From Bacillus sp. FJAT-42376 (lineage in GTDB: Bacteria; Bacillota; Bacilli; Bacillales; Bacillaceae), in NCBI RefSeq assembly GCF_003816055.1, contig NZ_CP033906.1, positions 3,100,001 to 3,164,000 on the forward strand: 64,000 nucleotides of DNA. Direction: 5' to 3'. Below the pieces are notes generated by a model. It saw only the letters and a list, made by a program, of their open reading frames with translations, searched no databases and was not told where the DNA came from. Position numbers and translations under genes: made by a program. Positions 1,844-45,899 of this stretch are shown piece after piece (position 1 is the stretch's first letter; each line of letters begins with the position of its first letter).

Positions 1844-3682
<1,839 letters not shown>

Positions 3683-43340: not shown

Positions 43341-43606
43341 AAAAACAAAAAACTCCCGTTCCTGTACAAATCCTTTAGATTTGCACAGGGACGAGAGTTT
43401 GCTCGCGGTACCACCCTGATTATGGACATGATTCATCCATCAGCTTTATTGAACCTTAACGCGGTTTCTCAACGGCAGGTATTTTGCCTGCACTCAGGAA
43501 TAGCGTTCTGTTACCCTTCATTTGAATGCCTTTTCAGCCTGGAGGCACTCTCTCTGAAAATGGACTGTAACCTACTCGTTTCCTTCAGCGTTTGTAACGT
43601 ATTCTA
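43341..43606 (-). promoter_or_regulatory. T-box riboswitch of alaS
   Basis: The minus strand has the T-box AGGGTGGTACCGCG (43404-43417), and an intrinsic terminator with a CCCTGTGCAAATC-type arm ending in a T-run (43341-43399). Stem I shows an AGTA/GAAC specifier loop with GCT, an alanine codon, in the pattern GAAC-GCT-A-TTC. Uncharged tRNA-Ala should favour read-through into alaS. Confidence 0.95.
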
Positions 43607-44755: not shown

Positions 44756-45721
44756 TTAGATAGTGATTTTATAAACGGTGGACCTGCGATTTCCTTCCGT
44801 TTCGTACCCCACTGATTTCAAAAGCCTTTTTACAGTAGAGCTGGAGGACAGGTTTAAGAAGGATTTTGCCTCACGATTTGATATCAAGTTTTTAAAAATA
44901 TAGGCGTAATCTTTCAATGCTTCAATATGTGCATCATTAGACGTGATCTCACATATACCGCACACCCACATTGAATTTTTAAGCCTTCTCATTGATAACT
45001 TCGAACATTTTATACAATAGACCCCCGGCAAAATATTTTCCGTTGAGATTTGATGCTTTACCATCATGTTTTTTTCTAAATCTGTATGTGCAGACAAGAG
45101 TTTAACACTCAATTCTGTCAGCTGTTGAGATGAGAGGATTTCTTTTTGATACACTTTTTCTAGTTCGCTTATTTTAAAAGGAATGGTTTGACTATGGAGC
45201 ACTTTGTTATGGATTTTGGAATTTTTTTGAGAAGCTTGGAGCATAGTTCGGGGATTTCCAATTGCAACGAATTCCTGTATAGGGAGATTCGGAAGATTGT
45301 TTTTTCTTAACCAATTCATTAACTGAAGTCTTTGCCTTTTCACTTGCATAATAGGATTAGGAAATGGTTCTTCCATATCGTTTTGAATTCTGATGAGCTG
45401 ATTGAAATCTGTATCAAACCTAAGCGTTCCCGCTATATTCTTCACTTCAAGAATTGTTATGAAGGACTGTGAGAGTAACAGTACATCGATTTGGAAAAAA
45501 TGGATGCCATCATGCAGTCTTAAATCATGGAATATTCGGTAAGTTTGTGCGTGGAGGAAGCTTAGAGGATATTCCATTTCCTTTTCTCCTTTATATCCAG
45601 CTGTTTGAATCGCCAAATCCTGGAGTACGGCATCGTATTTAGGATGTTGAGGATCGAGTCTTCTTTTTATTGCCTGAAGTTGTTTGAGAGAACGAGGGAT
45701 TTTAAGAGGTTTAATAATCAT
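44756..45721 (-). CDS. NERD-domain nuclease with zinc ribbon and C-terminal helix-turn-helix-like segment
   Basis: A 321-residue protein. The nuclease-related domain (about 44-165) has GEKEME (44-50) and a PD-(D/E)xK-like core, FQIDVLLLS (D79) then ILEVKN (E92, K94). A zinc ribbon follows (C236, C239, C254, C257). Residues 280-320 look like a helix-turn-helix, ending VKRLLKSVGYETEGNRRSTVYKITI. The gene is visibly AT-richer than its neighbours and is not part of the B. subtilis order here, where glnQHMP sits as I recall. AAGGAGAATC precedes the ATG. It may cleave nucleic acid; its biological role is unknown. Confidence 0.88.
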   Translation of the reverse strand: MIIKPLKIPRSLKQLQAIKRRLDPQHPKYDAVLQDLAIQTAGYKGEKEMEYPLSFLHAQTYRIFHDLRLHDGIHFFQIDVLLLSQSFITILEVKNIAGTLRFDTDFNQLIRIQNDMEEPFPNPIMQVKRQRLQLMNWLRKNNLPNLPIQEFVAIGNPRTMLQASQKNSKIHNKVLHSQTIPFKISELEKVYQKEILSSQQLTELSVKLLSAHTDLEKNMMVKHQISTENILPGVYCIKCSKLSMRRLKNSMWVCGICEITSNDAHIEALKDYAYIFKNLISNREAKSFLNLSSSSTVKRLLKSVGYETEGNRRSTVYKITI

Positions 45722-45800
45722 TTAAGATTCTCCTTCCAGTGTCATTCTTTCAATTCCCTTTCTGCTGTTAAAACTCCTCCTGCATGCCAAAACTAATTTA

Positions 45801-45899
45801 CGGGCATATTTCTGTCGATTACGGGCAATTCTTTGTCAATTGCGGGCACAAATTTGTCGATTACGGGCATTTTCTTGTCGATTACGGCCAAATCGACAA
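45801..45899 (+). repeat. Four 21-bp tandem repeats ending in a perfect hairpin
   Basis: Four consecutive 21-bp units begin at 45801, 45822, 45843 and 45864, each CGGGCA-N6-TTGTCGATTA with small changes (the second has TCAATTG). A shortened fifth unit closes with an inverted copy: TTGTCGATT-N7-AATCGACAA (45875-45899), a 9-bp perfect stem. The block lies 80-180 nt upstream of the NERD gene on its 5' side. Confidence 0.95.

Follow-up and report, generated by a model that had tools for sequence, protein, structure and literature searches.

What would a predicted nuclease do with an array of short direct repeats placed in front of its own gene? We examined this question in a window of 64,000 nucleotides (positions 3100001-3164000) of the 4.25 Mb, single-contig genome of Bacillus sp. 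FJAT-42376, hereafter G000. An earlier note, made from the letters alone, had drawn attention to a NERD-domain gene at this place, to four 21-bp repeats upstream of it and to a possible link between the two. We confirm that the NERD gene lies behind a real repeat array. Below we follow the gene and its repeat within this genome, across the genus and across the GTDB family, and weigh several explanations of their association.

A predicted nuclease gene behind a 21-bp repeat array

The gene (44756..45721, minus strand, ATG start) encodes a protein of 321 residues whose sole Pfam match is NERD (E=5e-20; 72.5 bits against a gathering score of 22.1), a PD-(D/E)xK-like domain that covers residues 41-153 (45263..45601, minus strand) and includes the conserved residues E46, D79, E92 and K94. 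All 55 homologues match NERD (PF08378; E up to 1). Among them D79, K94, C236, C239 and C254 are invariant and E92 and C257 are at least 90% conserved, which bears out both the NERD core (D79, E92, K94) and the zinc ribbon (C236/C239/C254/C257; 44951..45016, minus strand) described in the earlier note. Judging from its sequence, the protein keeps the catalytic-type acidic residues and the lysine of NERD and is a predicted nuclease. In the C236-C257 region, models of zinc ribbons and of L37Ae match weakly. Residues 283-319 (44765..44875, minus strand) form a putative HTH-like C-terminal domain, in which residue 295 tracks the repeat unit (see below); no HTH model is among the Pfam matches listed for NERD relatives. 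Solved structures compared by sequence gave at most weak matches at the level of the zinc ribbon, and PHROGs gave weak matches only, to families without assigned function.

Genes in this part of the window are presumably yrrI, yrzQ, yrzR, yrrD, alaS and recD2, and the earlier note places glnQHMP at the corresponding position of the B. subtilis order. As had been claimed, the gene is AT-richer than its neighbours, with a GC content of 0.35-0.37 in the 500-bp windows inside it versus 0.39-0.50 in windows clear of the gene between 40 and 50 kb. Rfam gave no convincing match at the place of the gene and the array. A T-box leader-like match (43500-43597, minus strand; E 1.7e-6; its 39.6 bits fall short of the gathering score, and the edge of the searched range truncates it) sits upstream of the gene that we take to be alaS-like.

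The array consists of four 21-bp direct repeats with the core TGTCGA-N15 (45798..45887, plus strand), the second copy reading TGTCAA. TRF reports 4.3 copies of 21 bp with a score of 99 at 45798-45887, a repeat search recovers four in-register 42-nt copies at a spacing of 21, and a 24-bp pattern with up to three mismatches has 4 matches in the window versus 0.03 expected from shuffles. At the gene-distal end a special closing unit, TTGTCGATTACGGCCAAATCGACAA (45875..45899, plus strand), joins the last TGTCGA to an inverted half-site TCGACA at 45893-45898, and array and half-site together span 45798-45899. The repeats and their closing inversion are thus as first described, and one detail needs correction: the unit in the window is CGGGCA-N5-TTGTCGATTA, and the spacer of six given before (CGGGCA-N6-TTGTCGATTA) has no match. 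A GCAGGA element common to part of the NERD genes precedes the start codon by about 60 bp (45778..45783, minus strand). Farther upstream, at about -197, there is a TGTCGCA, 20 bp past the closing half-site (-177).

The array is kept with the gene in the genus and dispersed in the genome

The NERD gene is found between the same two neighbours, orthologues of what we take to be yrrI and yrzR, in five of the six genomes of the genus, and the syntenic proteins are 81, 80, 49 and 45% identical to the 321-residue protein. Upstream of the gene in all five genomes, TGTCGA recurs every 21 bp and is followed by an inverted half-site. The syntenic arrays of G003 and G004 were located by synteny and not by the repeat; they keep TGTCGA at 21 bp, and the other 15 positions are quite different. 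Pooling 182 non-terminal units from 50 arrays gives a conservation of 96-100% for TGTCGA and at most 84% for every other column, a figure that is partly by construction because the arrays were chained by TGTCGA; evidence free of this bias comes from the syntenic alignment. Of the 80 genomes of the GTDB family, 5 contain three TGTCGA spaced 21 bp apart, and each of these 5 has the syntenic NERD gene; the remaining 75 have no such triple. Among these 75 is G002, the sixth member of the genus, where the NERD gene is missing from the syntenic place. Elsewhere in G002 (C1:1250152-1251100) a NERD gene lies in two pieces on different stretches, an apparent pseudogene. A 24-bp form of the unit, allowing one mismatch, is found in 4 of the 80 genomes, all of the same genus, with a single match of the reversed control in one other genome.

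Within G000 the TGTCGA-type unit forms arrays at 8 places (32 matches with up to two mismatches; 0 for the reversed pattern). This genome has four NERD genes, and the array in the window is the only one of the eight that adjoins any of them. The earlier note had staked its link on the repeats not lying mostly away from NERD genes; taken literally they do, since one array locus in eight adjoins such a gene. This count does not discriminate, because dispersed copies belong to the phenomenon itself. The loci of two further NERD genes of this genome (L070 and L080) hold other repeats, TTTTCGATAATA being the unit of another of its NERD genes, and at the fourth (L085) the three units found with the others are all missing. 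Shortly after one TGTCGA array, at about 1109.6 kb (L037, approximately 3100-3200), there is a degenerate 21-bp array of the form CGGGCCA...CGAATA that has no TGTCGA core.

Arrays with different units precede most NERD genes

NERD proteins are present in many Bacillaceae genera, with relatives in at least 37 of the 80 genomes. Autocorrelation of 47 upstream regions gives a best lag of 21 in 27, of 20 in 8 and of 40 in 4. Using a threshold that was set on a first set of NERD genes and already fixed when the 39 genes of a later set were obtained, we find a 20/21-bp array upstream of 30 of 49 genes in the first set (in which partial genes are counted, as are both loci, L086 and L088, of a broken gene) and 25 of 39 in the later set. 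Among the matches listed, this gives 55 of 88 NERD genes, with 33 below the threshold. Other lags between 12 and 39 pass in 1 of 49 and 0 of 39 regions. Long upstream regions of other genes, from loci of one genus of which many were chosen for holding arrays, pass in 3 of 153 cases with TGTCGA arrays removed and in 18 of 168 with these kept. One of the three passing controls is a NERD gene itself and another is a degenerate TGTCGA-type array. Among distant NERD paralogues none passes (0 of the 17 analysed out of 20 fetched). Fisher tests of the NERD arrays against controls give 3e-27 and 6e-7.

The units differ by type of NERD gene (GCAAATAAA, ACTGATAAA, TCATCATAA, GTCCGATA, TTGACAGATT and TCGAAGATAAA), and close relatives have the same unit. 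The link between repeat and protein gains from the arrays at 5 of 5 syntenic genes and 55 of 88 relatives. The accompanying idea of a small locus finds no support, the repeat being one of several dispersed families.

Units and their cognate NERD genes mostly co-occur

Four units were searched genome-wide, and the reversed-pattern controls had no match in these searches. For the first of the three further units, pairs of the form TCATCATAA-N12-TCATCATAA (up to one mismatch) have 22 matches in G000 and 29 in G001, the genomes whose NERD genes L070 and L069 carry TCATCATAA; the other four genomes of the genus have 1, 1, 3 and 4 matches. These include arrays or pairs at two places in G004 and three in G005, one in each with a mismatch, in genomes without a NERD gene known to bear TCATCATAA. 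In a second example, GTCCGATA-N13-GTCCGATA has 37 matches in G004, 104 in G005 and none in the 78 other genomes of the family, and these two are exactly the genomes with GTCCGATA-bearing NERD genes (L072 and L073, among the matches listed). In a third, TTGACARATT-N11-TTGACARATT has 6 matches in G065, 3 in G066 and 5 in G075, where the NERD genes L184, L182 and L183 carry TTGACARATT, with one match in each of three further genomes and none in 74. ORFs of 100 codons or more enclose all three single matches and overlap none of the five loci examined in G065, G066 and G075, three of which are the NERD upstream copies. Hence for four of four units, repeat and cognate NERD gene occur mainly in the same genomes, with the exceptions given.

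The arrays also have an internal organization. TGTCGA arrays have a polarity. An inverted CGAC ends 26 of the 50, always at the same offset, and accompanies 0 of 182 inner units; CGACA is absent from the 30 bp that precede the first unit in all 50. A special unit T(C/T)(A/C)GCATAA stands no more than 50 bp ahead of the first unit in 12 of the 17 TCATCATAA arrays of G000 and G001, and in none of them does it follow the last unit or occur inside the array. Because special end units sit at one side, many arrays have a defined end, which at the window gene and at L099 is the end distal to the gene. Three long arrays of the GTCCGATA type in G005 measure about 0.9-1.2 kb (L273:5233-6430, L275:4923-5974 and L277:4625-5533) and are built of 20- and 21-bp units in a higher-order period of 103 bp. 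Several GTCCGATA arrays of the draft genome G004 lie at contig ends. At one comparable place G005 has an array of 1.2 kb and 35 copies and G001, a genome without a GTCCGATA tandem match, has a degenerate GTCCGATA-like array; we read this pair as decay in G001, the alternative being growth in G005.

A residue of the putative recognition helix tracks the repeat core

If the protein reads the repeat, its DNA-binding part should vary with the unit. Residue 295, the third of the putative recognition helix, is shared by 7 of 10 pairs of proteins with the same repeat core versus 61 of 701 with different cores at 40-50% identity, by 7 of 13 versus 11 of 132 at 50-65%, and by 7 of 7 versus 0 of 2 at 65-85%. 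These comparisons use hand-aligned cores and non-independent pairs, and identity is that of the remainder of the protein. The adjoining residues 294 and 296 are shared in none of the 10 same-core pairs at 40-50% identity. A TCATCATAA-type and a GTCCGATA-type protein (L069 and L073) are 39% identical in the rest of the protein.

Broader statistics give a more mixed picture. In a residue-by-base scan of 20 cluster representatives, z exceeds 3 in 9 of 301 tests in the 43 C-terminal positions versus 14 of 1932 elsewhere; the strongest single values lie outside the C-terminal domain (206, 187 and 157), and the mean z of this domain is not clearly above that elsewhere, base 7 being the exception. 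When repeat similarity is compared with the putative recognition helix in a partial Mantel test that controls for the remaining protein, the association is weak (r = 0.096; 22/999 permutations) and weaker still below 60% identity (88/999) and below 50% (315/999), all with automatic alignment of units. In a scan of 13-residue windows the highest Mantel values are C-terminal (277 and 301-309), in a design that sampled C-terminal windows more densely than others, and the chosen helix window is not among them. These tests drew on the 88 genes, with 52 in the Mantel test and the same 51 in the residue scan (20 cluster representatives) and the residue 295 comparison. Overall, the covariation makes recognition of the cognate core by the C-terminal domain likely.

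Alternative explanations

It is conceivable, though unlikely, that the arrays mark a regulon, in which the NERD protein, its nuclease perhaps inactive, would be a transcription regulator and the dispersed arrays the operators of its target genes. The arrays examined are intergenic with few exceptions by crude ORF calls, 9 array loci are common to G001, G004 and G005, and an array upstream of the NERD gene fits autoregulation. Their position relative to the flanking genes argues otherwise: 73 classified arrays of three units lie at 28 convergent, 38 tandem and 7 divergent junctions versus 19, 79 and 41 for 139 array-free intergenic regions (chi-square p 2e-5, with junctions classified by crude ORF calls, orthologous arrays counted repeatedly, NERD upstream arrays included and 5 contig-end arrays set aside). 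Arrays are thus over-represented at convergent junctions and seldom lie at divergent ones. Moreover, arrays of 1 kb with a 103-bp period, at loci that vary between species, are unlike operators, and the catalytic-type residues of the protein are conserved.

A role in defence, which the earlier note had offered as one possibility, is improbable. Here the nuclease would attack incoming DNA, and the arrays would serve as self-marks or as decoys that hold the nuclease on the chromosome. The nuclease-type core with a DNA-binding-like tail would suit such a role, and there are weak matches to PglW and to MAD6 (18 bits against a cut-off of 460). PADLOC offers weak partial matches only, the best having E=0.0036 over 67 positions of a 917-position model, and none is a convincing defence match. 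The surrounding genes, by the names that we take to be theirs, resemble housekeeping genes and keep a conserved order, and relatives of the protein are nearly absent from collections of mobile DNA: 1 of 72,556 plasmid records (weak, 25% identity), 1 of 50,697 phage records (weak, 27% identity) and no confirmed relative among 289 pattern matches in IMG/VR viral contigs. A defence island was likewise rejected, there being no supporting neighbours and no supporting models.

Even less probable is recognition of the arrays by a host regulator, for instance Spo0A, with no part in it for the NERD protein. The 0A box bound by Spo0A is TGTCGAA, and the core of the arrays in this clade is TGTCGA. At position 7 of the unit, the final A of that motif, 91% of G000 units have T, and A is frequent in G003 and G004. 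A single forward element that resembles the Spo0A box, TGTC(G/T)(A/C)A at positions -230 to -150, is present in 29 of 87 NERD upstream regions versus 2 of 297 controls, and three upstream regions of the first NERD set have two TGTCGA 10 bp apart. This promoter site may be a Spo0A box. A second element, GCAGGA, mostly near -57 to -66, is found in 24 of 87 NERD upstream regions versus 13 of 297 controls, and the two elements lie on either side of the arrays. The arrays of other NERD genes have quite different units, among them TCATCATAA, GTCCGATA and TTGACAGATT, and therefore one host factor cannot read them all; Spo0A alone was rejected because these units are unlike 0A boxes. Finally, mere coincidence, in which dispersed repeats arising by passive slippage happen to lie beside NERD genes, would agree with most TGTCGA arrays being away from these genes and is scarcely credible, contradicted as it is by the upstream arrays at 5 of 5 syntenic genes, by 55 of 88 NERD genes versus 3 of 153 controls and by the co-occurrence of four units out of four.

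Comparison with known systems

REP sequences are extragenic, and some adjoin a RAYT gene. In the REPIN-RAYT systems described in PMC8049555, a dispersed repeat is paired with an enzyme gene, repeats are more numerous where the enzyme gene is present, and the enzyme gene is described as unseen on plasmids. In these traits the NERD system is similar: for four units, the repeat is found beside the enzyme gene and dispersed in the same genome, and relatives of the gene are nearly absent from plasmids. The NERD gene is syntenic in 5 of 6 genomes, and plasmid and phage records hold one weak match each. The enzyme here is NERD PD-(D/E)xK-like and there a tyrosine (HUH) transposase, a class absent among the best 25 of 68 Pfam families in NERD relatives, where all families besides NERD are weak. 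The repeats here are direct tandem 20/21-bp arrays with an inversion only at one end, in 26 of 50 arrays, and there palindromes, and here several NERD paralogues per genome have different units. REPIN-RAYT would thus be the closest known logic, with an unrelated class of enzyme and structure of repeat.

Plasmid iterons are direct repeats of about 20-22 bp that an HTH protein binds in phase, and they too may be accompanied by inverted half-sites. NERD arrays resemble iterons and Rep operators in their direct repeats of about 20 bp, their inverted half-sites and a putative HTH-like protein, and differ in being chromosomal, at many loci, and in having a nuclease-type domain and no replication protein. 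A third comparison is SmdA of Staphylococcus aureus, a membrane-attached morphology protein that has the NERD domain (PF08378) in common with the 321-residue protein. SmdA lacks several of the most conserved NERD residues, and the accessible part of its description (PMC9040797) makes no mention of repeats.

A model for a possible partnership of NERD proteins and repeats

Based on these data, we propose, as rather more probable than the alternatives taken together, that the NERD protein binds its cognate array by its C-terminal domain, autoregulates, and sustains the dispersed arrays of the same unit. The C-terminal domain of each NERD protein would recognise the core of its own 20/21-bp unit. 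This spacing corresponds to two helical turns, so several copies of the protein can share one face of the DNA, and they would do so along the array. The array upstream of the gene would most likely be an operator by which the protein represses its own gene. Autoregulation, as the earlier note had suggested, is a plausible role for this array and would act through the C-terminal domain. The same unit would form arrays at other intergenic sites, mostly convergent or tandem junctions, and the protein would help to keep or enlarge them. We infer maintenance or copying of the arrays by the nuclease, their decay without it and any benefit that they bring to the cell.

Nicking or cutting, to which the nuclease-type domain points, might be the step through which arrays lengthen or are copied; this is conjecture. 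In an extended form of the model, possible and distinctly more tentative, each NERD paralogue would drive a private repeat population: an HTH code with residue 295 among its determinants would select the unit, nicking or cutting would lead to array growth and to copying, end unit included, to new junctions, and a changed helix would found a new family as the old arrays decay.

To our knowledge, no cellular role has been established for this NERD subfamily. In the literature that we covered, from which subscription papers were mostly outside, we found no description of NERD genes together with repeats. The authors of the SmdA study state that they are aware of no earlier study of NERD domain function in any bacterial protein (PMC9040797). 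A partnership between a nuclease and a repeat, with private units for each type of gene, may therefore be new, a second kind beside REPIN-RAYT. The arrays give each predicted nuclease a predicted DNA target, and they may also explain intergenic tandem repeats where draft assemblies such as G004 break. If the nuclease does sustain the arrays, these genomes would have an analogue of REPIN-RAYT that is driven by a nuclease and in which one genome holds several repeat families, and the NERD proteins with their units would form a natural specificity series for a recognition code.
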